A DNA stretch of 64,000 nucleotides from Acidobacteriota bacterium (GTDB lineage: Bacteria > Acidobacteriota > Terriglobia > Terriglobales > Acidobacteriaceae), in NCBI GenBank assembly GCA_021800255.1, contig JAJYZC010000008.1, positions 1-64,000 on the forward strand, in the 5' to 3' direction. The notes below the pieces were generated by a model, which searched no databases, had not been told where the DNA came from, and worked only from the letters and a program-made list of their open reading frames with translations. Positions 5,828-22,347 of the stretch are shown one piece after another. The translations under genes and the position numbers were made by a program. Position 1 is the stretch's first letter, and the number at the start of each line of letters is the position of its first letter.

Positions 5828-7354
5828 ATGCAAACTCATCTGACGTTTACCTCTCTTTCCGGAATCAAGACTGAACTGCTGGCCGTTCTGGCCGCCGACA
5901 CGCAAACCGCCAAAGGCGCGCAGGCCAAACCGGCTCCTGAACTGCTCACCGCCGATGCGACGGTGAAGGCGGCCGCCGCGCAGGCGCTGGCCAGCGGGGA
6001 GTTCAAAGCGGCGGCCAATGAGACGCTGCTGCTGCACGCGCCCACGGGCTTGGCGGCCAAACGGCTGTTGATCGTGGGCTTGGGCAAGCCTGCTGCGGCC
6101 GCCAAACAGGCTCAGATAAAGGTCAACAGCGTGCGCGATGCCGCCGGCGCCGCGGTGCGCTTCGCCAAGCCGCGCGGGATTCGGGAGATCGTGTTCGCAT
6201 TGCCCTCGTCCGAAGATTTTTCCGCCGCAGGCGTCAGGGCAGCGGTGGAGGGCGCGTTTGTGGGCGACTTCGATCCCGACACCTACCGCAGCGACCGCAA
6301 GGACCAGAGCATTGCATCGTTCACCGTGGCCGCGCCTGCCGATTGTGACCGGGCCGCTCTTGAAGCCGCCTTTGCCGAGGGGGTGATTTTGGGCGAGAGC
6401 CAGAACTTTGCCCGCTCCCTGGTCAACGAGCCCGGAAACAAGATGACGCCCACCGTGCTTGGCCAGCGCGCCGCGGAGATGGCGAAGCAAGTGGGCCTCG
6501 GCTGCGAGGTCTACTCCACCGAAAAGCTGCACGAGCTGAAGATGGGCGCCTTCTGGGGCGTCTCGCAGGGATCAACGGAGCCGCCGGCTCTGATCGTGAT
6601 GCGCTACGAACCTGCAGGCGTCAAGGAGGGGCCAATACTTGGGTTGGTGGGCAAAGGCATCACCTTCGACACCGGCGGCATCTCCATCAAGCCCTCCGAC
6701 AACATGGAGAAGATGAAGTACGATATGGCGGGCGGCGCGGCCATGATCGGCGCCATGCGCGCCATTGCACTGCTCAAGCCCAGGGTGCGCGTGATCGGCA
6801 TTGTCTGCGCGGCCGAAAACATGCCCGACGGCAAGGCGCAGAAGCCCGGCGACGTGCAGACAGCCATGTCGGGCAAGACCATCGAGATCATCAATACTGA
6901 CGCGGAAGGCCGCCTGGTGCTGGCCGACGGCCTAGCCTACGCCCGGCAACTGGGCGCGACCCACCTCATCGACGCGGCCACGCTGACCGGCGCCTGCGTC
7001 GTGGCGCTGGGCATGGTGAACGCGGGCGCGTTCTCAAACGACGACCATGCCTACGCGAAGTTCGAGGCGGCGCTGGCCGTCAGCGGCGAAAAGTTCTGGC
7101 GGCTGCCTTTAGGCGAGGACTACGCCGAGATGATCAAATCCGAGATTGCCGACATCAAGAACACTGGCGGGCGCTGGGGCGGGGCCATCACCGCGGCCGA
7201 GTTTCTGCACGCCTTTGCCGAAGACACGCCCTGGATCCATCTGGACATTGCCGGCGTGGCCTGGGTGGAGGATTCCCGCCCCTACATCGCCAAAGGCCCC
7301 AGCGGGGTGGGCGTGCGCACCATTGTGGAGTGGGTGCGGAGCTACCCCGATTAG
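5828..7354 (+). CDS. pepA: leucyl aminopeptidase (M17)
   Basis: 508 residues. Cytosolic M17 peptidase removing N-terminal residues. The N-terminal macro-like domain covers ~1-165; the catalytic domain carries GKGITFDTGGISIKPS with the metal-binding Lys/Asp, YDMAGGAA, and the family signature NTDAEGRLVL, with the catalytic Arg in that motif. The ATG at 5828 is chosen because AGGGACG precedes it and homology begins with MQTHLTFTSLSG; an upstream open frame to 5570 overlaps the divergent DUF4870 gene and lacks a good start. Length matches the family. Confidence 0.93.
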   Translation: MQTHLTFTSLSGIKTELLAVLAADTQTAKGAQAKPAPELLTADATVKAAAAQALASGEFKAAANETLLLHAPTGLAAKRLLIVGLGKPAAAAKQAQIKVNSVRDAAGAAVRFAKPRGIREIVFALPSSEDFSAAGVRAAVEGAFVGDFDPDTYRSDRKDQSIASFTVAAPADCDRAALEAAFAEGVILGESQNFARSLVNEPGNKMTPTVLGQRAAEMAKQVGLGCEVYSTEKLHELKMGAFWGVSQGSTEPPALIVMRYEPAGVKEGPILGLVGKGITFDTGGISIKPSDNMEKMKYDMAGGAAMIGAMRAIALLKPRVRVIGIVCAAENMPDGKAQKPGDVQTAMSGKTIEIINTDAEGRLVLADGLAYARQLGATHLIDAATLTGACVVALGMVNAGAFSNDDHAYAKFEAALAVSGEKFWRLPLGEDYAEMIKSEIADIKNTGGRWGGAITAAEFLHAFAEDTPWIHLDIAGVAWVEDSRPYIAKGPSGVGVRTIVEWVRSYPD

Positions 7355-8056
7355 GCCACATGCTGTGAGGCAGGAACTTCTCACGAGTCGAACAGTAAGT
7401 ATCCTCCAGTGGCACCGGAGGGTTTATGGCTGGCGGCCCTTCAAAGGGACCTGAAATTGGCCGCAGCCGGCGGTTGCGCCACTGCCTGCGCTCAGGGCCT
7501 TGTAACAGCGCGAATTTACTCGTGCCTGAAAGCCGTAACTCCGAAACTTTTGGGGTTGCCCCTGCGGAAATGCATGGTGGAACCACCCTCGCATCAACCG
7601 TGGGGACGGCTACCGGAAATGTCAAACTTCGACTGCCTCCCCGGCAAGTTCGGAGCTTCCCCCGGTGGGGGGAATAAGAACGGAAGCTGTTATATTGCCC
7701 GAAGTAACTTATTTTAGATTACCTATTTTCTGAAATACTCGAATCGAAGGGTCCATATCTCAGCGTCTACGCTTCCACCTTCTCGCCATTGTCTAAAAAG
7801 ATTCAAGCGGTTAGCTTCTGAATTGTCAGTCCGCCCGGGCTGATTTAGAGGGTACGTAGCTTTAGGGGGCACCTAGCCGGAACCACCATCATGGCTGCGC
7901 GGACTGTCATGGTAAGCAATAGGGAGCAAGACGGCAGGGCGGGAGAACAAGCAGGAGCCGGGCGCGACGGATGAATGACAAAGCCGCAAAGAAAGCGGCA
8001 AACGCACCCGCTGCTCATAAAGCTTTGCGCTAGTGAGCAGAGAATGGGAACTCGAG
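7355..8056. other. long intergenic leader before the exopolysaccharide locus
   Basis: About 700 bases without a convincing gene. Visible structure: a nested stem AGCTTCC..GGAAGCT enclosing TTCCCC-CGGT-GGGGAA near 7655-7690, and several GC-rich palindromes between 7430 and 7500. Two very short open frames (7891-7974 and 7971-8033) overlap as ATGA and then run into the GTG at 8033; they could be leader peptides or chance. I looked for a c-di-GMP-I riboswitch core (GACGCAAAGCC) because of the downstream genes and did not find one. Confidence 0.4.
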
Positions 8057-9250
8057 ATGAAGAGCAATCTGCTGCAGCCTGTAGCCATCATGGGGCTGCC
8101 TTTCAACGCGGTGACGGCCGATGAGGCTGTTGAGGACATGGAACGTCTGCTCGTGTCGGGTGGAACGCACCACATTTGTCCAGTCAACGTGGATGTCTGG
8201 TTGAACTCGCTGGCCGACCCGCACCTGCACCGGATCATGGCCGCCTGCACGCTGGTGCTGGCCGACGGGATGCCGCTGGTGTGGGCGTCGAAGCTGTTAG
8301 GCTGCCCGCTGCCTGCGCGGGTGACAGGTGTAGACCTGGTACCGAGACTGGCCACGCTTTCCGTACGCAAGGGCTACGGAATCTTTCTGCTAGGTGGGCG
8401 GACGGGCGTGGCTGACCGGGCCAGCGAGATGCTGAAGCGCAAATTTCCCGGGGTGAACATTGTGGGCACATACTCTCCGGCGGAAACGAGTCTCATCCGC
8501 ATGGATCACGCGGAGATACTCAACCGGGTTCACGCTGCGCGGCCCGACATTCTGTTAGTAGCCTTCGGTAATCCCAAGCAGGAAAAATGGATTTGGATGC
8601 ACCGCAAGCGACTGGGCGTTCCGCTGGCGATGGGGGTAGGCGGCAGCTTCGACATTCTGGTAGGCGACACGCGCCGCGCACCGCGCTGGATTCAGCAATG
8701 CGGAATGGAGTGGGCGATGCGCTTTCTGCAGGAACCGGCGCGGCTGGGTCCGCGCTATCTGCGGGACTTTATCGGGCTGGCGCAACGGCTGCCCCTGGCC
8801 TTGCTGGCGGCATGGAGCCAGAAGCCCTTTCTCGGTCCATCGCGCGTGGCTACGGCCTCCACTCCGCAGGTGTTGCACGTATACATCCACGGACGTTTAG
8901 GCGCCAACATTGGTGAGCCATTGCAGGAGGCCACGACCGCGAGCATCGTCAACGGCCAAGTCATGGTGGTGCACCTGCACACGGTCAGTCAGGCGACTGC
9001 GGCGGGTTTCGGAGTGCTGCTGGATGCGCGGCGGCAGTTGCTGGAGGCAGGACTCTCGCTCTCCCTGGCTGGGCTGGATCTGAAGATGCGCTTTTTGCTC
9101 TATGCCTGGCGGCTGCAACCTCTGTTCGACGAGTGGCAACCGGCCATTTCGCGGGGCCGTCCTTTTGTCGAGGAGGCGGAAGCACCGTTGTCTATCGACC
9201 TTGGAGCCGATCAAAATGCGCTGACGGCGCAGACGCGAGTGCGTGGATAA
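8057..9250 (+). CDS. WecG/TagA-type glycosyltransferase fused to a STAS domain
   Basis: 397 residues from ATG 8057 (a GTG at 8033 adds eight). Residues ~5-250 are a GT26 (WecG/TagA/CpsF) domain: NVDVWLNS, LVLADGMPLVWASKLLG with the conserved Asp, GVDLVPRL, VAFGNPKQEKW and GVGGSFD. These enzymes transfer ManNAc(A), glucose or similar to a polyprenyl-linked acceptor at the inner face of the membrane. Residues ~275-375 (VLHVYIHGRL..VVHLHTVSQATAAGFGVLLDARRQL..LSLAGLDLKMRFLL) have the beta-alpha pattern of a STAS domain, normally in anti-sigma-factor antagonists and sulfate transporters. It opens the exopolysaccharide locus. Confidence 0.82.
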   Translation: MKSNLLQPVAIMGLPFNAVTADEAVEDMERLLVSGGTHHICPVNVDVWLNSLADPHLHRIMAACTLVLADGMPLVWASKLLGCPLPARVTGVDLVPRLATLSVRKGYGIFLLGGRTGVADRASEMLKRKFPGVNIVGTYSPAETSLIRMDHAEILNRVHAARPDILLVAFGNPKQEKWIWMHRKRLGVPLAMGVGGSFDILVGDTRRAPRWIQQCGMEWAMRFLQEPARLGPRYLRDFIGLAQRLPLALLAAWSQKPFLGPSRVATASTPQVLHVYIHGRLGANIGEPLQEATTASIVNGQVMVVHLHTVSQATAAGFGVLLDARRQLLEAGLSLSLAGLDLKMRFLLYAWRLQPLFDEWQPAISRGRPFVEEAEAPLSIDLGADQNALTAQTRVRG

Positions 9251-9282: not shown

Positions 9283-10719
9283 ATGCCACTGATCATCCTC
9301 ATTCCGGCAGTGGCCTGTTGGCTGGTTTTGGCCAGGGGGTCGGTGCGCAAGGCGCTGCTGAACGTCTACCTGCCCTCGGTGCTGCTGCTGCCCCAGTACT
9401 ATATTTTGCGGCTGAAGCATCTGCCTCCGCTCACCTTCGCCGACGCCGCCATCCTGCCCCTGGGCCTGGCGCTGGTTTTGACGGAGATGCGGCGCTGGCG
9501 CTGGTCATGGATGGATCTGTGGGTATTTTTATTCGCGGTCTGCACCGGACTTTCGGAGGGATTGAGCACGCAGCTTGCGAATGGCCAGTGGGCCCATCTT
9601 TTTTCGGCCCGCTACACGGTCTGGCACACGCTGAACACCAACTTGGCGGACGGAGGGTTGATGTTTTTTGAGCGGCTGACGACGGTGGTGCTGCCCTATA
9701 TGGCGGGCAAGCTGCTCATCGAACCAGGTCCAGGCGGCGATCGGATGCGCCGCAAGCTGGTGAGCCGCATCGTGGAGCTGCTGGCGGTGGTAGCGGCGAT
9801 TAGCGTCTACGACTTTCTGAACGGCGGCAGCATTTGGCAGACGGTGGGAAAACACATCTTCACGCACCAGTATGTACCGTGGATTCCGCAGATGCGCTGG
9901 GGATTCGGGCGCATTGCCGGACCCTACGGCCACGCCATCCTGGCGGGCATGATCTTCCTGACCGGTTTGGTCTATTGTCTCTGGCTGCGCAAAGTTGATC
10001 CAGAGTGGGGCGCGCGGCAGGTGATCGCGGGTGTGCCGGTGACCGTGCGCGGCCTCCTGCTGACTGCGGTGGCGGCGGCGTTGCTGATGACGCAATCGCG
10101 CGGCCCGTGGATGGGCGTCATTTTGGCGCTGATGTTCACGCTGCTCACGCGGGTGCTCCCCGTGGGCAAGGCGGCGATGGTGTTTCTGCTGTTTCTGGCG
10201 GTCTTTGGCGCGGCCGCCTACCATTATGGAAACGAGTACACGGACAGGCCGCTCAACCAAGCCAAGAACACGGAGCAGCGCAACGCTATCTACCGGCGGC
10301 AACTTTTGGTCAACTACATTCCCCTGGTGATGGAGCGCAAGGCGTTCGGCTGGGGCATTACCACCTATCCAGTACTGAACGGACAGGTGTCGATCGACAA
10401 CGAGTACTTGTTGCTGGCGATTACCCAGGGATTCGTAGGGATGGGCGTATTTTTGGCGATCCTAGCGGGCAGCGCGTGGCGCCTGCTGCGGATGATCGCC
10501 CAGCCGTTGCGCGAGGAGGACCGGCTGCTGGTGTTTGCTCATCTGGCCGTGGTTATCGGTCTGGTGACGACCCTGGCGACGGTGTACATGGGGGAACAAG
10601 TGGTGATGATGTTTTTCTTGTGCATGGGATGGGTGCAGGGCATGAACCCGGCGCCGGCGCCTTTCGAGGCCGCATACACATTGGCGCCGCAAGCGGGCTT
10701 CCGGCGGGTGCTGGTGTAA
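9283..10719 (+). CDS. O-antigen polymerase/ligase-like membrane protein (Wzy/WaaL type)
   Basis: 478 residues with about ten hydrophobic spans. The large loop and the region SRGPWMGVILALMFTLL followed by a run of short spans match the Wzy_C/O-antigen ligase family; arginine- and histidine-containing periplasmic loops are as expected. It would join undecaprenyl-linked repeat units into polymer at the outer face of the inner membrane. It starts 33 bases after the WecG-STAS gene and is likely cotranscribed. Such proteins diverge strongly, so polymerase versus ligase is undecided, but the Wzx, Wza and Wzc partners favour polymerase. Confidence 0.75.
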   Translation: MPLIILIPAVACWLVLARGSVRKALLNVYLPSVLLLPQYYILRLKHLPPLTFADAAILPLGLALVLTEMRRWRWSWMDLWVFLFAVCTGLSEGLSTQLANGQWAHLFSARYTVWHTLNTNLADGGLMFFERLTTVVLPYMAGKLLIEPGPGGDRMRRKLVSRIVELLAVVAAISVYDFLNGGSIWQTVGKHIFTHQYVPWIPQMRWGFGRIAGPYGHAILAGMIFLTGLVYCLWLRKVDPEWGARQVIAGVPVTVRGLLLTAVAAALLMTQSRGPWMGVILALMFTLLTRVLPVGKAAMVFLLFLAVFGAAAYHYGNEYTDRPLNQAKNTEQRNAIYRRQLLVNYIPLVMERKAFGWGITTYPVLNGQVSIDNEYLLLAITQGFVGMGVFLAILAGSAWRLLRMIAQPLREEDRLLVFAHLAVVIGLVTTLATVYMGEQVVMMFFLCMGWVQGMNPAPAPFEAAYTLAPQAGFRRVLV

Positions 10720-10959: not shown

Positions 10960-12189
10960 TTGGTGAAGTTGGACACATTTTTGGCGCAGGCGCTGGCAGT
11001 GCTGATCGTGCTGTTTGCCGCGCCTCTGTTCCTCGATCTGGCGGTCTGCATTGCGGGCAACCTGCGGCGCGCACGCCGGCCACATGCGGCGCCAGGGCGG
11101 ACAATCCGGCTGGCGGTGGTGGTGCCGGCGCACGACGAAGAGACGATGATTGCGGATACGGTGCAATCGCTGCTGGCGGCCGGCTGCACCGTCAAGGGAG
11201 CAGAGCGCGAGGACGACTCCGCAGGGGGTGCGGGGGTTCCGATTTATGTGGTTGCGCACAACTGCTCGGATGCAACGGCCGCAGTGGCGGCCGCGGCCGG
11301 CGCGCGCGTGGTGGAGATAAAAAATCCCCGGCTGGCGGGCAAGGGAGCGGCCTTGCGGTGCGGATTTCAGGCGGCGCACGCCGAGGGCGCCAATGCGTTC
11401 CTGGTGGTCGATGCCGATTCGGTCGTCAGCCCCAACCTGATCGCGGCGATTAAAGCGGCGCTCGAAGCCGGCGCTGAAGTTACGCAGTGCCGTTATGAGC
11501 TGGAGCTGCCCTCCGGCCCATTTCATCCGCTGGCCCGGCTGCGAGTGCTGGCCTTTCGCGGAATCAATGTGTTGCGCGCCCGGGGCCGGGCCGGCTTAGG
11601 CTTCTCCGCCGGCCTGTTCGGCAACGGCTTTGCCGTAACTGCGGAGACGCTGGCGCGGGTTCCGTTTTCCGCCGACAGCATCGTCGAGGACATCGAGTAT
11701 CACACGCGCCTGGCTGCGGCCGGAGTGAGCGTTCATTGGGTTGAGGAGGCGACGGTATGGGGTCCGCTGGCCGCGGCCGGCGCCGCGCGCGCCACGCAGG
11801 AGGCGCGTTGGGAGGGCGGACGGTTCCACGTCGCCGCGCACTCTACAGGGCGGCTGTTGAAGGCCGCTTTGAGCGGTGAATGGCGGGCGCTGGAGATGCT
11901 GGCCGAGGTATGGAGCCTGCCCCTCTCACGGGGCATCATGGCGCTGCTGCTGACGGCATTTGTGCCCCTGCACTGGCTGCACTTGTTTGCTCTCGGCTGC
12001 GCGATCATCACGGTGGTCTATGTGATCGAGGCTGCGCTGCTGGGCGGCGAACCCTGGCTCGATCTGGCGGCGCTGGCTGCGGCGCCTTTGCACATCGCGT
12101 GGAAGGCAGCCGTAACGCCGCTGGTTTTGCGTCAATCGCGGAGTGGCGCCGAATGGTCGCGCACACGGCGGGAGGCGCGACAGCCATGA
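10960..12189 (+). CDS. glycosyltransferase family 2, membrane-anchored
   Basis: 409 residues; probable TTG start at 10960 (GTG at 10963 possible) ten bases after AGGAGGGAG. An N-terminal span (ALAVLIVLFAAPLFLDLAV) precedes a GT2 domain: VVVPAHDEETMIADTV, the metal site VVDADSVVSP, the acid pair SIVEDIEYHTRL and QEARWEGGR (the QxxRW-like motif), then two C-terminal spans (~300-380). The layout fits an inner-membrane transferase building the polymer repeat unit. A low-complexity stretch at residues ~75-88 (AEREDDSAGGAG) is inserted in the N-terminal half. Its stop overlaps the next ATG (ATGA). Confidence 0.82.
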   Translation: MVKLDTFLAQALAVLIVLFAAPLFLDLAVCIAGNLRRARRPHAAPGRTIRLAVVVPAHDEETMIADTVQSLLAAGCTVKGAEREDDSAGGAGVPIYVVAHNCSDATAAVAAAAGARVVEIKNPRLAGKGAALRCGFQAAHAEGANAFLVVDADSVVSPNLIAAIKAALEAGAEVTQCRYELELPSGPFHPLARLRVLAFRGINVLRARGRAGLGFSAGLFGNGFAVTAETLARVPFSADSIVEDIEYHTRLAAAGVSVHWVEEATVWGPLAAAGAARATQEARWEGGRFHVAAHSTGRLLKAALSGEWRALEMLAEVWSLPLSRGIMALLLTAFVPLHWLHLFALGCAIITVVYVIEAALLGGEPWLDLAALAAAPLHIAWKAAVTPLVLRQSRSGAEWSRTRREARQP

Positions 12190-13889
12190 ACGATGTCCTG
12201 CTGATTCCCGATCCGTCGGACAAGGAAGCCGATTGGACGCTGGACCCCGAAGGCGGACAGCCGGTTCATGAAGCCGAAGCCGCTCCGGAGCCGGCCGCGG
12301 CCTCGCCTATGCAAGAGGTCAACCGTCATTTTGGAACCAACGTGGCGGCTACCGTCTCGGCGCGCGTGGTGAACATGGCCAGAGGGGTTTGCCTGGTGCC
12401 TTTTCTGCTTTGGCACATCGGTCTGGAGGCTTACGGCATTTGGACGACGATCTTCATCCTGGTCTCGTATGTGGGCGTGACCACGCTGGGACTTTCCAAC
12501 GTGTACATCAAATACGTGGCGGAGTTTCACGCGCGCCGGGAGTACGACAAGGCCAACGCGCTGCTGTCCACGGGATTGTCGATCACCATTCCCCTGTGCG
12601 CAGCCCTGTTCGCCGGCTTTGTGCTGTGCTGGAAGTGGTACTCGCCGTGGCTGCGGCTGCCTCCGGCGCACGCCGCCGACGGCAAGGAAGCGGTGCTGAT
12701 CGTGCTCGGCATCTTTCTTTCCAGCATTGCCTTCAACGGCTTCGGCGACCTGCTGACGGGAACGCAGCAGATCGCGGCGACCCAGGTCTTTCTGATTATC
12801 AGCATTCTGACCGAGTTCGCGCTGATTCTCTGGCTGGTGAGCGAGGGGCGCGGAATTCGCGGTCTGGCCGAGGCCTATCTGGCGCGGACCATCCTCAACG
12901 ACGGGCTTACCATCTGGTGGGCCTTCCGCAAGCTCAAGTGGCTGCACGTGTCGCCGCGGCTGGTGAGCAGCGAGGCGATCAAACAAGTGGTGCACTTTGG
13001 CGGTGTGGTGCAGTTCCAAACCATGCTGTCCATCTTTTTGGCTTCGGTGGAGCGGCTGGCGGGGCTGATGAGCATCGGAGTCAAGGCCGCCGGCCTGCTG
13101 GACGTGGCTAAGAAGTGGCCCTCCGCGCTCTCCACCGTGCCCATGTCCTTCTTTTTTGCGCTTCTGCCGGCCGCCTCTCACGTCGAGGCGGCTTCCAGCC
13201 CTTCCGAGCGCCTGCGCAACCTGCGCAAGCTTTACCTGAGCACCTCGCGCTACTCGAATCTGAGCACCGTGGCCTTTGTGGCCGCCATCGTCTTCTGGGC
13301 CGGACCCATCCTGCACGTTTGGCTGGGTCCGGAGTTACCAAAGCTGCATTCGGCAGTCACCTTATTTGTGGTATTCAGTCTGGCCATGCAATTCCATATG
13401 CTGACAGGACCGGGGAACTCGCTGTTCCGGGGCATCGGGCGGATTTACGAGGAGTTCAACTACTCGGTTCCTAACTTGGCGCTTTTGGCCATGGCCTTGC
13501 CGATGGCACGCTGGATTCAGGGAAGCTGGACCCCGCTGGGCATCGGCGTGGCCGCCGCCGTGGCGACCATCCTCTCAGCTTGCGTGTTGATGGGCAGAGT
13601 GCTTTTCGTGCTCGATCTCAAGCTCATCCACTACCTGAAAGTGGTGATTGTGCCGGGACTGGCTGCCTACATGGTCGCGTTTCTGCTGGCGTGGCCCGTG
13701 GCCAAGCTGGTGGCGGCGGCCAACCGCTGGGAGGGGGCGGGAGTTTTGCTCGCTGCGGGCGTGGTTTACGCGGGAGGGACGATTTTGATTCTTTATCGCT
13801 GGGTGTTGACGAACGAGGAAAAACGCAAAGGAGCCGAACTCTATTCCCGCGGCTTGGGAGTATTGCGCGGCCGGGAGGCAGTGGCATGA
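12186..13889 (+). CDS. polysaccharide flippase, Wzx/MATE-like
   Basis: 567 residues with about 12-14 hydrophobic segments. The first ~55 residues are an acidic, Ala/Glu-rich cytoplasmic extension; the transporter starts at NRHFGTNVAATVSARVVNMARGV, the usual N-terminal helix of MOP-superfamily lipid-linked oligosaccharide flippases. It would carry undecaprenyl-diphosphate repeat units across the inner membrane to the polymerase. The ATG at 12186 overlaps the previous stop by four bases (ATGA), pointing to translational coupling; the longer open frame upstream lies inside the GT2 gene and is ignored. Confidence 0.85.
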   Translation: MNDVLLIPDPSDKEADWTLDPEGGQPVHEAEAAPEPAAASPMQEVNRHFGTNVAATVSARVVNMARGVCLVPFLLWHIGLEAYGIWTTIFILVSYVGVTTLGLSNVYIKYVAEFHARREYDKANALLSTGLSITIPLCAALFAGFVLCWKWYSPWLRLPPAHAADGKEAVLIVLGIFLSSIAFNGFGDLLTGTQQIAATQVFLIISILTEFALILWLVSEGRGIRGLAEAYLARTILNDGLTIWWAFRKLKWLHVSPRLVSSEAIKQVVHFGGVVQFQTMLSIFLASVERLAGLMSIGVKAAGLLDVAKKWPSALSTVPMSFFFALLPAASHVEAASSPSERLRNLRKLYLSTSRYSNLSTVAFVAAIVFWAGPILHVWLGPELPKLHSAVTLFVVFSLAMQFHMLTGPGNSLFRGIGRIYEEFNYSVPNLALLAMALPMARWIQGSWTPLGIGVAAAVATILSACVLMGRVLFVLDLKLIHYLKVVIVPGLAAYMVAFLLAWPVAKLVAAANRWEGAGVLLAAGVVYAGGTILILYRWVLTNEEKRKGAELYSRGLGVLRGREAVA

Positions 13890-14923
13890 ACAGCCGAATA
13901 GCCATGACGTGCGTGACTTTGCTGCTTTCGGCAGGCTGGACGTGGGCGCAGGAAGCGCCGCAGAGCGCGCAGCTTTTGCCGGGGCAAGACGCGGCCCAGC
14001 TCGCGTCTCAGGAGACAGCACAACAGCCGGCCGAGCCGCAACTGGTACCCAATGAGCTGGAGCAGATGCGCAACTTCGAGCCGGCGCCCGACGCGGAGTA
14101 CCGCTTGGGCAGAGGCGACGAGATCACGGTGGACTTTGCCGGGCGTCCCGATATGAATGCCAAGCTGGTGATCGGCCCGGATGGGCGCATCACCCTGCCG
14201 CTGGCGGGCGACATCCTGCTCGCCGGACTTACGCGGCCGGAGGCGGCTGAGGCCATTGCCAAGGCTCTGGCGCCTTACTACATGAACCTGTCAGTCCAAG
14301 TGACGGTAACCAAATACACCTCCAACCAGGTTCTGGTGTTGGGGGCAGTGACAAAACCCGGGCTGGTCACATTCGACGGCACGCCCACATTGCTGGGGGC
14401 GCTGACGAGCAGCGGCATGGGATTAGGACCGGGCGGCACCGCACAGATTCCCGAGCGCTGCGCCATCTATCGCGGCCAAAACGAGGTGATCTGGGTTGAT
14501 GTCAAGAAGCTGGTTGAGGCCGGCAACGGGCTGGCTAATCTGCGCTTGGAGCGCGGCGACGTTGTCTATGTGCCCAGCATGGCCGAACAGTTCGTCTCCG
14601 TGCTCGGCCAAGTGGAAAAGCCGGGAGCGGTACCCTTAACCAGCGATTCGACGTTGGTGAGCATTCTGGCTGAGGCCGGCGGTTTTACGGCCAATGCGGG
14701 CAACACGCCGCACATCCAGATCGTGGATCCCAACCGGCACACGACGCGTGTGCTCTCAATGAAGGATTTGCTGAAGCCGGCCAAGTCGCAGGAGGCTACG
14801 CTGCGCCCCGGCGACATTATCTATGTGCCGCAGACCGGCTTTGCACGGACTGCCTATGTGCTGTCGGGGCTGTCGCCGCTGATTACGGCGCTCAGCTTCG
14901 GGCTTTTTACGGGAGGGTTATGA
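13886..14923 (+). CDS. wza: polysaccharide export protein, Wza-like
   Basis: 345 residues. Signal peptide MNSRIAMTCVTLLLSAGWTW cut near AQE; no lipobox cysteine at the cleavage site, unlike enterobacterial Wza. The Poly_export domain (YRLGRGDEITVDFAGRPDMN through ITLPLAGDILLAGLTRPEA, ~75-155) is followed by two SLBB-like domains (VLVLGAVTKPGLVTFDG and VSVLGQVEKPGAVPLTS) and a hydrophobic C-terminal helix (AYVLSGLSPLITALSFGLF). This is the outer-membrane conduit partner of the Wzc-like protein. ATGA overlaps on both sides. Confidence 0.88.
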   Translation: MNSRIAMTCVTLLLSAGWTWAQEAPQSAQLLPGQDAAQLASQETAQQPAEPQLVPNELEQMRNFEPAPDAEYRLGRGDEITVDFAGRPDMNAKLVIGPDGRITLPLAGDILLAGLTRPEAAEAIAKALAPYYMNLSVQVTVTKYTSNQVLVLGAVTKPGLVTFDGTPTLLGALTSSGMGLGPGGTAQIPERCAIYRGQNEVIWVDVKKLVEAGNGLANLRLERGDVVYVPSMAEQFVSVLGQVEKPGAVPLTSDSTLVSILAEAGGFTANAGNTPHIQIVDPNRHTTRVLSMKDLLKPAKSQEATLRPGDIIYVPQTGFARTAYVLSGLSPLITALSFGLFTGGL

Positions 14924-17793
14924 GCCAGTTTTCTTCACAACCCGTTTCCATGGGCGCACTCCGCGCCGGCGAAGGCGCTGCGGGCACGGGACCCGCCTTC
15001 GGGGTGGGTTCTCCGGCTGCCTCGCAGCCCTTGCACGCCGTCAGCCCCGGGCAGGCGATCTTCCGGCTGAACATACGGCGCAGTCTGCAACTGCACCGGC
15101 GGCTGGCATGGACGGTGGCCCTGGCGGGGATCGCGCTCTCGATTGTGTACTTCCTCAGGCTATGGCCGCAATACCTGGCGCAAAGCCTCATCTATGTCCA
15201 GCCCTCCTCACCCAAGGTGTTGCAGGGCGGAGTGCCGCAATCACCCTACGGCGGCAGCGATTACGAATCGTATTTGGAGCAGCAGATGGCGACCGCCGTC
15301 CGCCTGGACGTGCTCGAAAACGCGCTTCACAAGCTGCCTCCAGGCGCTTGGCAAAAGGACGGCGAGAGCGATCAGGCCGCGGCCGCGCGCCTGAGCCACG
15401 CCATCCAGGTGGAGCGGACCGGCGCCTATCAATTCACGATTGGCGGACGCTCCCCCAAGCCCCAGTTGGCCGCAGAGTTAGCCAATGCCGTCACCTCCAG
15501 TTATCTGCAGATCACGACGCGCGAGGAGAAGGCAGGAGATGCGCAGCGGATCGCAATTCTACGCGACGAACAGAAGCGCATTCAGGATGAACTGAATGCC
15601 GACCTCAGCCAGCAGGATGCCTTAAGCAAGCAACTGGGGGTGGCGGCGGCGGCAACTGCGGCCCCTGACTTGATTGACACAGACATCGGCAAGATTCGCG
15701 GGGATCTAATCACGGCGGAGACCAACTACGACCAGGCGGCGGCGCAGTATGCGGCCATGGATGCCGGTCAGGGGAATTCTTCGGCGGCCATCCAAGCCGA
15801 AGCTGACAACATGATCGCCAGCGACCCCGGCCTGACCAGCATGAAAACCTCGCTGAATACGCGGCGCGCGGCGCTGATTACGCAGATGAGCAACCTGACG
15901 CCGCAAAATCCTGAGTACCAACAGGACGCGGCGGAGCTGGCCAAGATCAACGGCACACTCGACTCCATGATGGCGAATCTGCGCGCCAAGGCGGCGGCGC
16001 GCATCCAGGAGCAACTGCGCACCAACTTGGCGCAGACAGCGGGTGTTGAAGCGCGGCTGAGCGGACAACTGCGGCGGCTGGTGACCGTGGCCGGCAGCGC
16101 AACGCCCAAGCTACAGCAGTCCAACGACCTGGCGGCCGACATCACCCGCCTGCAAGACCGATATACGGCCGTCAACGATCAGTTGCACAACGAAATGCTC
16201 GAAGCGAGCGCGCCGGGTTCGGTATTTCTGGTCTCCGCGGCGGTTCCTCCTCTCGACCCCGTAAGCTCCGGGGTGGTGCGCAATACGCTCATTTTGATCT
16301 TTGCTGCGATCTCGTTCGGGATATTGATTGCTGTGGCCGCGCACAAGATGGACCCCAAGCTCTACGCCGCCAGTGAGGTGGAGCAGGCGACGGGATTTGC
16401 GCCCATGGCGCAACTGCCCGACTTCAGGGAGGTTCCGGACGAGGTGGCCGAGGAACATCTGCTCCGGCTTGCGGCGTCCATAGAGCACGCCTGCAAGGAG
16501 GGCCACCTGAAGAGCTGCATCTTCACCGGGACCGCGCCCGGCGTGGGTGTGACAACGGTGGCGGCCAAAGTGAGAGATATGTTAGAGGCCATGGGCCGGC
16601 CCACGGCGCTGGTAAATGCCCGCAGAACTCCGTTGCAGGCGTCTCGCGCGGCCGCGACAGAGACTGAGGTTCACGCCGGCAGCGAGCGGGGCAGCCGCTC
16701 GACCGCCCTGTTGCGGCAGGTGTCGCAAGAAGCCGGAATGAAGGACGGGAGTCTGGTGCTGACCGACACCGCTCCGCTGGAGATTTCGGCGGAAACCGAA
16801 TATATGGCCCGCTTTGCCGATTGCGTCATCGTGGTCATGGAAGCCGGTGTGACCACTCGCGAGCAATTGCGGAGTGCGGTTCAGATTCTCCAGCGGCTCA
16901 ATGTAGGGACGGTGGGATTTGTATTGAACCGGGTGAGCCTGGCTAAGGCCGACCCGGCTTTCTGCCAGTCCGTAAGCGCCGTGGAGAGGCGCATTCGCAT
17001 CGAGGGCCGGTCTACGGCGGTGCGAACGGCGCGGGCCCGCCACTTCGAGGAAGAATCTTTGCCAGCCGCGGAGCAAGAGATTGGGCAAGCATCCGCGCCG
17101 CCGCAACCGGAACAGGCCATTCCCGCCCCCGCGTTTGCGGCCTACCGCGCTACTGGCGGGGAGCCGGAACTGGCCGGAGCCGCCGCACCAGCGCCTCTGC
17201 CGCAGCCTGCGGTAAGCGCGCCCAGGGTGCAGCAGGCTCCGCTGCCCGCACCCGAGCCGGATCCGGACATCCCCTGGTGGCTCTCAGAAGCTTACCGGCA
17301 GCCGCCCGCGCCTGCCGCGGAGATACTCTGGCAGCCGGCAAAGACTCACCCTGCGAAGGGCGCCAGCGGACAAGACGCGCAACAACCGGCTCCGGGAGCG
17401 GCTTCTGACGCGGCGGCATCGCGCCTGAGCGGCCTCAGAAACATTTTCTTTGCGGCGGGAGGCAGCGGCGATCTGAATCCCACCCGGGAAGCAGCGCCAA
17501 AAAGCGGAGAACCTGCGCTGCCTGCCAGCGAGCCGCGGCGTCCGGCTGAGCCCCTGCCGCCGGCCGTCAGCCGCGTTTTCGTGCCTCTTCCTTCGCATCT
17601 CCCGGCTGACGGCGCTGCGCTGCGAAAGGTGATCGCGGCGCCGGAATTTCTCCCTCCCAGGCCCGCAGCGCATTTGGATGCCAGAGGTCACTTGCGGGAA
17701 CATGAGCAGACGATTCATCTCGATCGCCGTGAGGCCTACGATGAAGTGGCGATCTTGCCCTCCTGGCGCGGCCAATACCGGCGCAAGGATTGA
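14920..17793 (+). CDS. Wzc-like chain-length determinant with degenerate BY-kinase domain
   Basis: 957 residues. A Wzz-type co-polymerase domain has transmembrane helices at ~65-85 and ~445-465 around a coiled-coil periplasmic part. The cytoplasmic P-loop-like domain (~525-690) reads FTGTAPGVGVTTVAAKV where BY-kinases have a GKS/GKT lysine, and the Walker A' DxD is ALVNARR; only the Walker B-like LVLTDTAPL is kept. The final ~260 residues are Ala/Pro/Glu-rich and lack a tyrosine cluster. It probably sets chain length and couples to Wza without being an active tyrosine kinase. Confidence 0.8.
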   Translation: MSQFSSQPVSMGALRAGEGAAGTGPAFGVGSPAASQPLHAVSPGQAIFRLNIRRSLQLHRRLAWTVALAGIALSIVYFLRLWPQYLAQSLIYVQPSSPKVLQGGVPQSPYGGSDYESYLEQQMATAVRLDVLENALHKLPPGAWQKDGESDQAAAARLSHAIQVERTGAYQFTIGGRSPKPQLAAELANAVTSSYLQITTREEKAGDAQRIAILRDEQKRIQDELNADLSQQDALSKQLGVAAAATAAPDLIDTDIGKIRGDLITAETNYDQAAAQYAAMDAGQGNSSAAIQAEADNMIASDPGLTSMKTSLNTRRAALITQMSNLTPQNPEYQQDAAELAKINGTLDSMMANLRAKAAARIQEQLRTNLAQTAGVEARLSGQLRRLVTVAGSATPKLQQSNDLAADITRLQDRYTAVNDQLHNEMLEASAPGSVFLVSAAVPPLDPVSSGVVRNTLILIFAAISFGILIAVAAHKMDPKLYAASEVEQATGFAPMAQLPDFREVPDEVAEEHLLRLAASIEHACKEGHLKSCIFTGTAPGVGVTTVAAKVRDMLEAMGRPTALVNARRTPLQASRAAATETEVHAGSERGSRSTALLRQVSQEAGMKDGSLVLTDTAPLEISAETEYMARFADCVIVVMEAGVTTREQLRSAVQILQRLNVGTVGFVLNRVSLAKADPAFCQSVSAVERRIRIEGRSTAVRTARARHFEEESLPAAEQEIGQASAPPQPEQAIPAPAFAAYRATGGEPELAGAAAPAPLPQPAVSAPRVQQAPLPAPEPDPDIPWWLSEAYRQPPAPAAEILWQPAKTHPAKGASGQDAQQPAPGAASDAAASRLSGLRNIFFAAGGSGDLNPTREAAPKSGEPALPASEPRRPAEPLPPAVSRVFVPLPSHLPADGAALRKVIAAPEFLPPRPAAHLDARGHLREHEQTIHLDRREAYDEVAILPSWRGQYRRKD

Positions 17794-18011: not shown

Positions 18012-18105
18012 AGGCGCAGCATCGCAGGCTCGGCCTCGCGGCGCTGGGTTCTCGAGAGGTTGATTGCAATCCGATAATAAAGACCTTGTATCCGGAGGGT
18101 TGGCC

Positions 18106-18789
18106 ATGCCGGAGATGGATAATCTCGATCAAAATGAAGGCGCAACCGGGGCCATTACCCGGCGCCGCTTCATCCTGGGAGTCATCGCCGGCGGGGCCGT
18201 GGTGGGCGCCGCGAGCTATCGTTTCCTGGCTCCCAGCAGCCCTAAGCCGTGGCTTTCAAAGAGCGCGAGCGAGCGGCTGATTACCCTGAACGTGAACGGG
18301 AAGCTGCGGCGAGTCGATGTGATGAAGCAGGAGACCCTGGCCCAGACCCTGCGCTACAAGCTTGGCCTTACGGGCACGAAGGTGGCCTGCGACCGGGCAG
18401 AGTGCGGATCCTGTACGGTTCTGCTCGACGGCGTTCCCTACTATAGCTGTTCGGTGCTCACGCACACGGTGCGCAATCGCAAGGTGACTACGATCGAGGG
18501 GCTGGCGGCCGCCGACGGCACGCTGCACCCGCTGCAAAAAGGAATTGTGGACGAGCAGGGGTTTCAGTGCGCCTATTGCATGACCGGCTTCACCATGGCC
18601 GCGGTGGGATTTTTGCAGAAGCATCCCAACCCCACGCGCGCAGAGCTGGCGTATGGCGTTTCGGGCAATCTGTGCCGGTGCCAGGACTACAGCAAAATCC
18701 TCGACGCCCTGATGCGCGGGGCGGAGTACATGAGGACCGGGGCCCCTGCGGACAGGTACTCGTCCGCGGGGTGGAAGAGGAGGGCATGA
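18106..18789 (+). CDS. aldehyde oxidoreductase, Tat-exported 2Fe-2S subunit (PaoA/YagT type)
   Basis: 227 residues. A Tat signal (ITRRRFILGVIAGGAVVGA) leads into a plant-type ferredoxin domain (CDRAECGSCTVLLDG, later C) and the all-helical [2Fe-2S] domain (QCAYCMTGF, GNLCRCQDY), eight ligand cysteines in all. It is the electron-relay subunit of a xanthine-dehydrogenase-family enzyme and carries the whole complex to the periplasm, as in E. coli PaoABC. ATG 18106 is chosen for GGAGGG six bases upstream; a TTG at 18064 in frame is less likely. The next gene starts one base after its stop. Confidence 0.85.
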   Translation: MPEMDNLDQNEGATGAITRRRFILGVIAGGAVVGAASYRFLAPSSPKPWLSKSASERLITLNVNGKLRRVDVMKQETLAQTLRYKLGLTGTKVACDRAECGSCTVLLDGVPYYSCSVLTHTVRNRKVTTIEGLAAADGTLHPLQKGIVDEQGFQCAYCMTGFTMAAVGFLQKHPNPTRAELAYGVSGNLCRCQDYSKILDALMRGAEYMRTGAPADRYSSAGWKRRA

Positions 18790-18790
18790 G

Positions 18791-21310
18791 ATGGCGGAGA
18801 TTGGATTAACCAAGGCCGAAAGCGAGAAGCCGCGCCCTTTCGGCGAAGGTTACCGGCTGATCGGGCACAATTACTCCACCAGCGATCTGCTGGCGAAGGT
18901 GACCGGCAGGGCGAAGTATGCCGAGGATTTCCGCGCCGCCGGCATGTTGATTTGCCGGGTTGCGCTCAGCCCCATGCCGCATGCGCGCGTCAAGCGCATC
19001 AACGCGGAAAAGGCGCTGAAGATGCCGGGGGTGATGGGCATCCTGACGCCGGAGGAGATTCCCGGCCACGCCAACTACGTCAACGACAATGGCACCTTGA
19101 TCCGTGCCGACAAATTCAGCGAGCTGGCGCTGGCCGATGAGCCCATGTACCAGGGCGAGCCGATTTTCGCCGTGGCCGCGGTGGATGAGCTGACCGCCGC
19201 GAACGCCATCGAGGCGGTCGAGGTGGAGATGGAGCCGCTGCCCTTCAACGTCGATCCGCTGGACAGCCTGCGTCCCGGCAGCGCCAATGCGCGCGAAGAA
19301 GGCAACGTGTGGACCTTTGAGCCCGGCAAGGGCCCGAAGCTCATCAACCTGAAGTGGACCGAGGAGGACTTTGCCGCGGAAAAGGAGGGCAAGCTGCCCA
19401 TGGGCCACGCGCCCGAGGAGTGGTCCTACGGCGATCTGGACGCCGGCTTCAGCAATGCCGCTCTGGTGCTCGACGAAACCTTTTCCACCGAAGACGTCAG
19501 CCACCAGTGCCTGGAGCCGCGCAGCACCCTGGCTTATTGGCAAAATGGCAAGCTCTTTTTGTACACCGGCACGCAGAGCACCATGCAGACCGTTCCCGCG
19601 ATTGCGCGCTGGATGCACATGCCCGCGGACAAGATCGTCTTCATCAGCGAATATACCGGCGGCGGGTTCGGCAGTAAGATCACCGGGGCGCTGACCTTGG
19701 TGATTCCCGCCCTGCTCTCGAGGAAGCTAAACAACGTTCCGGTGATGATGCGCATCAGCCGCGAAGATGAGCATTTCATCGGGCGCGCGCGGCCGGGCAT
19801 CATGTCCCGGACCAAGGTGGGTTTCGCCAAGGACGGCCGCATCACCGCGCTCGATATGTTCCTGGTCTCCGACGCCGGCGCCTACGGAGCCAACGGCGAC
19901 GGTGAAAGCTGCGGTCAAATCACTTCGCTGCTCTATCAGCCGCCGGCCATGCGCTGGCGCAACGTAACGGTAGCCACCAACACGATTCCGCGCAGCGCGC
20001 AAAGCGCGCCGGGCGGCTTGCAGGCCATTGCGATCATAGAGCCCATTCTGTCCAAGGCCGCGCGCAAGCTGGGCGTCGATCAGGTGGCTCTGCGCCGCGT
20101 GAACTGCCCGGAAGGCAAAGCGGAATTTGGCCCTCCCGATCCGCGCACCGGCAAGCGCCGCTACACCACAAGCTGCTTCCTGAAGCAGGCGCTGGACGAA
20201 GGCGCCAAGCAGTTCCATTGGAGCCAGCGGGCGGCGCAGCCCAAGCGCAGCGGCACCAAGGCCCGCGGCTTGGGCGTGTCACTAAGCTGCTTCCACGCCG
20301 GCAGCATCGGCTATGACGGCTTGATCGTCATTACTCCTCAGGGCCGCGTGCAGATCCGCTCGGGCATCGGCAACCTGGGAACTGAGGCGGTGATCGACGT
20401 GCATCGCGCGGCCGCGGAGGTCCTCAACATACCCTGGAGCGCCGTGGACATCATCTGGGGCGACACGGCGAAGCACTTGCCTTACACCTGCTTTTCGGGG
20501 GGCAGCCAGACCATTCATGCTATGACCCGCGCCGGACATGCCGTGGGCCTGGAGTGCGCGCAGAGGCTCAAGGAGGTCGCGGCCAACGCCTTAGGCGGTC
20601 AACCGCAGGAGTACGAGGTCGCCGGTCTGCGCGTAGCGCGCAAGGGCGGCGGCGCGAGCATGAGCTTTGCCGAGGCGGCCCAGCACGCCATCAAAATGGG
20701 CGGCATCTACGATGGGCACCAGGTCAATCCCGAAGTGAACCCCTACACCAAGCACTCCGTTGCCGCGCTGGCCGGTTCGGGCCTGGTGGCTTCAGCAAAA
20801 GACACCTACAAGCACGACGGCGATGATTATTCCTTCGTGGCCAGCTTTGCTGAGGTCGAGGTGGACGTGGAAACAGGCAAGTATTATGTCACCGATTACC
20901 TTGGCTATGCCGACGTGGGCACGGTCATCCACCCGGCGGCGCTGGGCGGGCAGGTTCTTGGCCGCTCGGTGCTGGGCATCGCTCACGCCATCGGCCAGAA
21001 GTGGGTCATCGATCCGCAGTGGGGCGTGACGGTGGCCGAACGGTTCTACGAAAACCACCCGCCGACGATCCTGGATGTGCCCGTGAACATGCAATGGAAC
21101 GCGGTCAACATTCCCGATCCAGAGACGCCGGTGGGGGCGCGCGGATGCGGCGAGCCGCCCGTGGGCGGCGGATGCTCGGCGGTCACCGGCGCTCTATCCG
21201 ACGCGCTGGGGGACAACATCTTCCAGCGCCTGCCTGTATATTGCGACACCATTTTGACGTCCTATGAAGCCGGGCGCCCGATGCAAAATCCCTTCCTGGC
21301 CCACATCTGA
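18791..21310 (+). CDS. molybdenum-binding large subunit of periplasmic aldehyde oxidoreductase (PaoC type)
   Basis: 839 residues. Ald_Xan_dh N-domain (YSTSDLLAKVTGRAKYAEDF, ~35-150) followed by the molybdopterin domains. Pterin and Mo contacts are readable in GGGFGSKITGA, GGLQAIAIIEP, SGIGNLGTEAVIDVH, and GARGCGEPPVGGG, which contains the expected catalytic Glu. No signal peptide is present, so it should be co-exported folded with the Tat-tagged 2Fe-2S subunit. It is longer than the ~730 residues of E. coli PaoC, with a ~75-residue insertion around 150-225. Aldehydes are the likely substrates; specificity cannot be read. Confidence 0.83.
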   Translation: MAEIGLTKAESEKPRPFGEGYRLIGHNYSTSDLLAKVTGRAKYAEDFRAAGMLICRVALSPMPHARVKRINAEKALKMPGVMGILTPEEIPGHANYVNDNGTLIRADKFSELALADEPMYQGEPIFAVAAVDELTAANAIEAVEVEMEPLPFNVDPLDSLRPGSANAREEGNVWTFEPGKGPKLINLKWTEEDFAAEKEGKLPMGHAPEEWSYGDLDAGFSNAALVLDETFSTEDVSHQCLEPRSTLAYWQNGKLFLYTGTQSTMQTVPAIARWMHMPADKIVFISEYTGGGFGSKITGALTLVIPALLSRKLNNVPVMMRISREDEHFIGRARPGIMSRTKVGFAKDGRITALDMFLVSDAGAYGANGDGESCGQITSLLYQPPAMRWRNVTVATNTIPRSAQSAPGGLQAIAIIEPILSKAARKLGVDQVALRRVNCPEGKAEFGPPDPRTGKRRYTTSCFLKQALDEGAKQFHWSQRAAQPKRSGTKARGLGVSLSCFHAGSIGYDGLIVITPQGRVQIRSGIGNLGTEAVIDVHRAAAEVLNIPWSAVDIIWGDTAKHLPYTCFSGGSQTIHAMTRAGHAVGLECAQRLKEVAANALGGQPQEYEVAGLRVARKGGGASMSFAEAAQHAIKMGGIYDGHQVNPEVNPYTKHSVAALAGSGLVASAKDTYKHDGDDYSFVASFAEVEVDVETGKYYVTDYLGYADVGTVIHPAALGGQVLGRSVLGIAHAIGQKWVIDPQWGVTVAERFYENHPPTILDVPVNMQWNAVNIPDPETPVGARGCGEPPVGGGCSAVTGALSDALGDNIFQRLPVYCDTILTSYEAGRPMQNPFLAHI

Positions 21311-21333
21311 CGGGATGTGAAACGGAGTTTGTT

Positions 21334-22347
21334 ATGGCGGTATTTCGAGACGTAATGCCCGCATTCGATCTGCTTCAGCCCAGTTCCGCGGCCGAGGCGC
21401 AGAGGCTATTGGCCGAGAACGGCAGCGATGCCTGGGTGATGGCGGGGGGAATGGACAGCCTAGACTGGCTCAAGGACCGCATCAAGAAGCCGCGCGTGCT
21501 GGTGGACCTGAGCGGAATCGGCGAGCTCAAGGGCATCCGCTCCACGGATGACGGCATTGAGATCGGAGCCATGACCACACTGACCGAGATCGGCGAGCAC
21601 CCGCTGGTGAGGAAAAATTACGGGTTGCTGGCCGAGGCCGTGGAGCACGTGGCCTCGCCGCAGATTCGCAACCAGGGGACGCTGGGCGGCAACGTCTCGC
21701 AGGATACGCGCTGCTGGTACTACCGCGGCGGCTGGCCCTGCTACCGCGCCGGCGGCGAGACCTGTTTCGCCGATACGCCCGTAGGCCGCAACCGCGAGCA
21801 CGCTATCTTCGGCGCCGACCGCTGCGTGGCCGTGCATCCTTCCGACTCGGCGCCGGCGCTTATCGCGCTCGATGCCAAGTTCGTGATCCGCAACGCCAAG
21901 GGCGAGCGCACCGTAGATGCCGAGGACTACTTCATCGGCCCCAATGTGGATATTACCCATCTGAACATTCTTCAACCCGGCGATCTGCTGACCGCTATCC
22001 GCATTCCCTCGGCGTGGGCCGGCCAGAAGTTCTACTTTGAGAAGGTCCGCGACCGCAACGTCTGGGATTTTCCGCTGCTGAACGTGGCCTCGGCCATGGA
22101 GCTCAAAGGGAACACCATCCAGCGCATCCGCATCGCGGTGAATGCCGTGGCGCCCGCTCCGCTGCGCCTGAAGGCCGTGGAAGCCGCGGTGGCGGGCAAG
22201 CCGGCCAATGCGGAGACCGGGGAGATGGCGGGCAACCTGGCGGTCAAGGGCGCGGTTCCGCTGCAGTTCAACGCATTCAAGATTCCGATGATGCGCAATC
22301 TGGTGAAGCGCGCCATCGGCGGCGTCGAGGAGGCAACATGGGCTTAA
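21334..22347 (+). CDS. FAD-binding subunit with extra 4Fe-4S site (PaoB type)
   Basis: 337 residues. FAD_binding_5 domain with AGGMDSLDWLKD near residue 38 and QIRNQGTLGGNVSQDTR, then a CO dehydrogenase flavoprotein C-terminal domain. Between them lies CWYYRGGWPC..CFAD..HAIFGADRCVAVHPSD, a loop with four cysteines that in E. coli PaoB and 4-hydroxybenzoyl-CoA reductase binds a [4Fe-4S] cluster. This places the enzyme in the PaoB class and apart from ordinary xanthine dehydrogenases. Starts 23 bases after the large subunit and overlaps the cytochrome gene by 10 bases. Confidence 0.85.
   Translation: MAVFRDVMPAFDLLQPSSAAEAQRLLAENGSDAWVMAGGMDSLDWLKDRIKKPRVLVDLSGIGELKGIRSTDDGIEIGAMTTLTEIGEHPLVRKNYGLLAEAVEHVASPQIRNQGTLGGNVSQDTRCWYYRGGWPCYRAGGETCFADTPVGRNREHAIFGADRCVAVHPSDSAPALIALDAKFVIRNAKGERTVDAEDYFIGPNVDITHLNILQPGDLLTAIRIPSAWAGQKFYFEKVRDRNVWDFPLLNVASAMELKGNTIQRIRIAVNAVAPAPLRLKAVEAAVAGKPANAETGEMAGNLAVKGAVPLQFNAFKIPMMRNLVKRAIGGVEEATWA

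Follow-up and report, generated by a model that had tools for sequence, protein, structure and literature searches.

The 64,000-nucleotide stretch of acidobacterial DNA analysed here (contig JAJYZC010000008.1; "the window") contains a gene in which a WecG/TagA (GT26) transferase is fused to a C-terminal STAS domain. Both folds are present, the gene heads an exopolysaccharide (EPS) operon, and the STAS domain is under purifying selection. The serine that serves as phospho-acceptor in classical STAS proteins has been lost in the sampled Acidobacteria, whereas most related fusions from Verrucomicrobia retain it. We conclude that this STAS domain descended from a phospho-regulated domain and has been maintained, but that, in the window's lineage, it can no longer be phosphorylated at the classical site. 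We give an even chance to a reading in which the protein is a membrane-associated transferase of early EPS synthesis and its STAS part is a docking domain, switchable in Verrucomicrobia and locked in the window's lineage.

A WecG/TagA transferase fused to a STAS domain

The fusion gene occupies positions 8057–9250 of the forward strand and encodes 397 aa from the ATG at 8057; an in-frame GTG at 8033 is a possible alternative start that would add 8 aa. A preliminary description of the window had placed a WecG/TagA transferase here, with exact coordinates and frame, and profile and structure matches bear this out. The catalytic domain (residues 9–236; 8081–8764, forward strand) matches PF03808 (Glyco_tran_WecG) over residues 65–234 with an E-value of 9e-60 (201.7 bits; cut-off 27.4), and the protein also exceeds the cut-off of TIGR00696 (137.2 bits; cut-off 69). 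In an AlphaFold2 model of the fusion protein built from 21 sequences (mean pLDDT 84), residues 7–203 align with TagA/TarA at Z 25.7 and an rmsd of 1.7, with 33% identity over 193 residues (VIA-align). Six residues (D70, R88, Q175, R222, R229 and R233) are invariant among 21 relatives; by alignment, D70 corresponds to the catalytic Asp65 of TagA and R229 to Arg221 of the TagA appendage. The sugar-contacting Thr37 of TagA is replaced by P42 in the window protein, a position that we do not take as family-defining.

In the AlphaFold2 model, the catalytic core is followed by a C-terminal appendage region (residues 204–253; 8666–8815, forward strand). A long helix (residues 227–253) closes this region immediately ahead of the STAS domain and corresponds to the end of the TagA appendage. 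In TagA, the appendage is required for activity, attaches to the membrane and supplies the active site with Arg221 (PMC6493773). By analogy with TagA, we infer a membrane role for the appendage of the window protein. Furthermore, the modelled placement of the STAS domain behind the appendage helix suggests that it could affect membrane docking or active-site closure.

Single-sequence matches to STAS models fell under the curated cut-offs (PF13466, 23.8 against 29.2 bits; PF01740, 18.2 against 22.6; TIGR00377, 19.9 against 53.45), so the reality of the domain needed testing. Six relatives (L053, L056, L113, L017, L058 and L059) pass the PF01740 cut-off, and a profile built from 21 relatives reaches solved STAS structures (4hyl, 4e-10; RsbV 6m36, 1e-8; SpoIIAA 1auz, 8e-8). 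AlphaFold2 block means exceed 90 across residues 261–360. Residues ~261–368 of the model align with SpoIIAA (1th8_B) at Z 14.2 and an rmsd of 2.4 over 108 residues, and the domain aligns with RsbV (6m36_B) at Z 14.1 and an rmsd of 1.7 over 99 residues (VIA-align for both); the match to MlaB (7cha_K) has a Z of 10.5. The profile and structure matches rule out a chance resemblance or a non-STAS fold, and the C-terminal STAS domain of the fusion is genuine. Domain search and structure prediction, which the preliminary description had suggested as a check, thus return a STAS fold for the C-terminal part, but the limits given there (~275–375) need to be moved slightly earlier, to residues 261–362 (8837–9142, forward strand). 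The remaining tail (residues 363–397; 9143–9247, forward strand) is poorly conserved and modelled with low confidence, with pLDDT below 50 from residue 365 and a mean identity of 40% in 10 close relatives.

The fusion heads an exopolysaccharide operon

The gene content downstream supports the earlier proposal that the fusion heads an EPS operon. The operon genes named next are all on the forward strand. The next gene encodes an O-antigen ligase/polymerase-like (Wzy_C) protein (9283–10719; Pfam and synteny), followed by a GT2 glycosyltransferase (10960–12189) that is EpsU-like, below the cut-off of that model, and whose start codon is uncertain. A putative flippase (11880–13889) has no Pfam match and a weak match to NCBIfam WZX_like (E 0.0033); its start probably lies further downstream. 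Profile matches and synteny identify the last two genes as a polysaccharide export (OPX; Poly_export) protein (13580–14923) and a Wzz/EpsF-like chain-length protein with a partial tyrosine-autokinase-like region (14920–17793). The latter has 957 aa and a long Pro/Ala-rich C-terminal stretch.

The gene order after the fusion is kept in 11 acidobacterial loci (L092, L093, L094, L036, L041, L043, L044, L046, L047, L049 and L052). More distant acidobacterial fusions have GT2, OPX and PCP neighbours (L088, L090, L095 and L096) or are immediately followed by OPX and PCP genes (L089 and L091). The source genome has a single Bac_transf (PF02397) match (G000:C4:2635–3198), which is on a different contig, so the window holds no initiating sugar transferase of this type. 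Immediately after the EPS genes lie xanthine/aldehyde dehydrogenase-type molybdenum hydroxylase genes (18064–22347) for Fer2, MoCoBD and FAD subunits. It should also be noted that Rfam at gathering thresholds gave no match in the whole window, and none up to an E-value of 1 in positions 7300–8120.

The phospho-acceptor serine is missing from acidobacterial fusions

According to the preliminary description, the phosphorylatable serine of STAS antagonists is replaced here by the segment TVSQATAAG, in which a serine and a threonine remain. The replacement is confirmed. This segment spans residues 309–317, and both profile alignment and a residue check place T314-A315-A316-G317 (8996–9007, forward strand) on the D-S(P)-S/T-G acceptor motif of RsbV and SpoIIAA, with Ala315 in place of the acceptor serine. 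S311 sits in the preceding strand (310–313) and T314 occupies the position of the conserved aspartate.

We counted acceptor motifs over distinct STAS sequences only. None of the 29 acidobacterial fusions has a serine at the acceptor; most carry TAAG or variants of it, and the others GADA, GPDA, EADG or DPVG. In contrast, 29 of 30 verrucomicrobial fusions have the serine in at least one STAS domain, and 24 of the 30 keep a D-S-x-[G/A] acceptor. Another five verrucomicrobial fusions have Ser or Cys at this position without the full motif, and one (L055) has Asn. In many verrucomicrobial fusions the STAS domain is present twice; the motif of the first copy is often altered (S/N-S-L-E), and that of the second is canonical. 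Free STAS proteins encoded in the fetched loci all have D-S-[S/A]-G (14/14 distinct sequences).

Partner-switch genes are often linked to verrucomicrobial fusions

Profile models detected no RsbW-like kinase, PP2C phosphatase or REC-PP2C-HATPase protein within the window. The PF13581 and PF07228 matches of the source genome are on other contigs; on one of these, C91, a gene for an RsbW-like protein (PF13581, 1.4e-27) adjoins a gene for an RsbV with the motif IDSSG. The 20 fusion loci that were fetched yielded neither a free STAS gene nor a SpoIIE or RsbW-like one; 19 of these loci are acidobacterial, and one (L053) has no stated phylum and was kept apart in the acceptor counts. Likewise, not one of the 21 fusion genomes from Acidobacteria has a SpoIIE phosphatase gene within 25 kb of the fusion. 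The acidobacterial contigs are mostly short, which makes missing linkage weak evidence there, but four of the genomes (G277, G385, G494 and G340) are well assembled. Sub-cut-off PF13581 matches lie 21 kb from the fusion in G277 (a 766-aa frame) and 39 kb from it in G069 (a 993-aa frame), and we did not count these as RsbW. Among 20 acidobacterial loci with a STAS-less WecG, one has a free STAS gene (L163, 8 kb off). Given the alanine at position 315, the lack of an acceptor serine in all 29 acidobacterial fusions and the lack of switch genes around those examined, the phospho-switch that had been proposed to gate polymer synthesis is not supported for this protein at the usual site.

The verrucomicrobial fusions show a different pattern. 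In 8 of 29 genomes, the fusion has a SpoIIE gene no more than 25 kb away, where at most 1.2 would be expected if such genes were scattered evenly over the genome (Fisher p 0.015 against the acidobacterial genomes). Of 17 verrucomicrobial loci, 8 have a free STAS gene within the flanks that were fetched, or 9 counting one ~15 kb off, compared to none of the 20 loci above (Fisher p 0.0006); L153, in which no STAS was found, is excluded from the 17. Neither p-value is corrected for relatedness, and kinship within each phylum means that independence is overstated. In L139 and L147, a WecG-STAS-STAS gene stands beside genes for a REC-SpoIIE-HATPase protein, a Bac_transf, a free STAS protein and a hexapeptide protein, while L142, L146 and L136 encode HATPase-SpoIIE proteins and a free STAS protein. 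Pfam confirmed the REC/PP2C/HATPase combinations, and several clusters encode a lipid-linked sugar transferase together with a free STAS protein and a kinase domain of the RsbW type. Since the acceptor is mostly kept and switch genes are often linked, the gene content suggests that a phospho-gate is plausible for the verrucomicrobial branch, which it fits far better. Most verrucomicrobial fusions, however, have no SpoIIE gene within 25 kb, and this counts against our preferred reading.

An EPS cluster from the window's genus group (L087:5738–12304) encodes a response regulator, a SpoIIE-HATPase fusion, a free STAS protein (FMDSSG), a Bac_transf and a Bac_transf-WecG fusion. This locus was chosen for its STAS match, and its WecG is STAS-less. 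It indicates that a trans-acting, SypE/SypA-like version exists in the window's lineage.

Distribution, history and selection

The preliminary description had asked whether the fusion recurs in acidobacterial genomes, and it does. It is present in 17 of 149 near relatives and in 5 or more of the 396 genomes sampled across the phylum Acidobacteria (source genome included in both). With a STAS model, it was also identified in no fewer than 28 among 288 genomes belonging to the phylum of a verrucomicrobial record, and by match range in one more (G731). The two larger surveys scored ~4 and ~6 candidates per genome, respectively, so that these counts are lower bounds. We rejected the idea of a clade-private oddity, as fusions occur in Verrucomicrobia too. 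The opposite idea, that a STAS fusion is a general trait of WecG proteins, was also rejected: STAS-less WecG domains make up 48 of the 108 rows of the tree described below, and in a plasmid tblastn none of 279 matching records covers 80% of the query.

The tree was built from 108 WecG domains with the STAS part excluded, leaving out WecG matches shorter than ~190 aa and identical domains. One 63-row group (support 97/91) takes in every one of the 60 STAS-bearing WecG domains, together with three STAS-less rows (L016, L112 and the long-branch L079). The 29 acidobacterial fusions and STAS-less L016 form a single group (support 99/97). The careful tree places L079 within the 63-row group and the quick tree places it outside; the least number of changes of STAS state is 4 and 3, respectively. 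This grouping is consistent with a single old fusion shared by Acidobacteria and Verrucomicrobia, followed by a few losses, without proving it. The acidobacterial L016, which belongs to the same clade, has lost its STAS domain, and we count this against the preferred reading.

In 10 pairs, dN/dS was 0.06–0.42 for the STAS domain and 0.04–0.16 for WecG. The low STAS values show that selection preserves the domain, though with less constraint than WecG, and as dN/dS stays under 0.43 in every one of the 10 pairs we rejected a decaying C-terminus. Mean identity in 10 close relatives is lower for STAS (64%) than for the transferase (76%), which again counts against the preferred reading.

Several further gene architectures were observed. 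Between L038:217–1422 and L039:5753–6943, the WecG parts are 96% identical (dS 0.17) and the STAS parts 67% identical (dS 1.30), so the gene looks mosaic, as if recombination had taken place between the two domains. The verrucomicrobial L055:232–2436 encodes a 735-aa protein that combines WecG, a partial STAS (acceptor NNRE) and a family-4-type glycosyltransferase. Two stop-to-stop frames join WecG to other partners: a family-4-type glycosyltransferase (L153:9476–11863) and a PMT_2 membrane mannosyltransferase (L171:7758–10067). In the WecG-STAS-STAS frame L125:841–3438, ~400 residues before WecG have no Pfam match and may be untranslated.

A proposed docking domain, switchable or locked

In the reading that we prefer, docking of the STAS domain would set where or with whom the transferase acts. 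In Verrucomicrobia, the acceptor serine and the linked kinase, phosphatase and free-STAS genes would allow this docking to be switched. With the serine gone, as in the window's lineage, the STAS domain would behave like a permanently unphosphorylated one, giving constant docking to a partner. The comparison here is with SypA, a free STAS protein with a phosphorylatable Ser56, whose non-phosphorylatable variant SypA-S56A is the active form (PMC4517449). On this basis, "constantly on" is the likelier direction.

Four other readings must be weighed against constant docking. The STAS domain could serve structurally or in oligomerisation, as MlaB does in its ABC transporter, with no regulatory role. 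This would agree with the fold being near that of MlaB and with a domain that is conserved yet acceptor-free, but in the verrucomicrobial relatives the acceptor is retained and switch genes often lie alongside, from which the ancestral role was probably regulatory; we consider a purely structural module unlikely. In a switch acting on threonine, an unlinked kinase, for example the RsbW-like protein of contig C91, would phosphorylate T314, which precedes the usual serine by one residue. Of the 21 members of the window's clade, 20 indeed have Thr at the T314 position, and three (L011, L049 and L052) have it at the usual acceptor position. However, T314 replaces the conserved aspartate and not the acceptor, the same position is G, E or D in other acidobacterial fusions, the C91 RsbW is already paired with a canonical RsbV, and the fusion has no linked kinase or phosphatase, which leaves this switch decidedly unlikely.

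The same RsbW/RsbV pair, the one clear pair in the source genome, bears on an outward action of the domain, in which the unphosphorylatable STAS would permanently bind an RsbW-like anti-sigma factor and the amount of EPS enzyme would feed a stress response. An alanine at the acceptor would stop phosphorylation-driven release, as this requires, but the pair is on another contig, and the changed D and S/T positions may also make RsbW bind less strongly. We regard such an outward action as very improbable. Some STAS domains bind nucleotides, and a small ligand (a nucleotide, nucleotide-sugar or lipid) might tune the transferase through the STAS domain; no ligand-binding motif was identified in it, and this is the least probable of the readings weighed here.

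Comparison with known systems

The window protein shares the catalytic fold, and the positions of the catalytic Asp and the appendage Arg, with TagA/TarA and the WecG/TagA/CpsF (GT26) family. TagA itself has no STAS domain and has Thr37 where the window protein has Pro42. The STAS fold is that of RsbV and SpoIIAA, but here the domain is fused to an enzyme, has Ala for the acceptor serine and is without a linked kinase or phosphatase. MlaB has the same fold and serves as an assembly subunit of an ABC transporter, without a transferase fusion.

Our search found no paper on a STAS domain with a WecG/TagA or EPS glycosyltransferase, most subscription journals being outside its range. STAS-glycosyltransferase fusions as such are already known: a review mentions Anabaena all4160, a glycosyltransferase with an N-terminal STAS domain that acts in the heterocyst envelope polysaccharide (PMC8256260). 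That protein resembles the one in the window in joining the two functions in polysaccharide synthesis, with STAS N-terminal there and C-terminal here.

The fusion joins STAS covalently to an early polysaccharide transferase, and so offers a testable target class for STAS switches such as SypA. The acceptor and the switch genes tend to co-occur or to be jointly absent between the two phyla, which provide natural "switchable" and "locked" versions for laboratory comparison. One parallel is SypA-SypE of the Vibrio fischeri syp locus, where STAS is in the first gene of a polysaccharide locus, as in the window. SypA-SypE-like gene sets occur among the loci studied here, as L087, L139 and L147 encode REC, PP2C and HATPase domains and free STAS beside sugar transferase genes. 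The direct target of SypA is stated to be unknown in the literature (PMC10120452; PMC8256260, section 6), and the review leaves that of HmpV open (PMC8256260). It is a tentative and rather doubtful generalisation that the STAS switches at polysaccharide loci (SypA, HmpV and free STAS proteins) act directly on early lipid-linked glycosyltransferases (WecG/TagA type and sugar-transferase neighbours) and not via a sigma factor, and that the acidobacterial branch hard-wired the active state through fusion and loss of the acceptor. SypA is a free protein with Ser56, whereas the STAS domain of the window is fused to its transferase and unphosphorylatable at that site.
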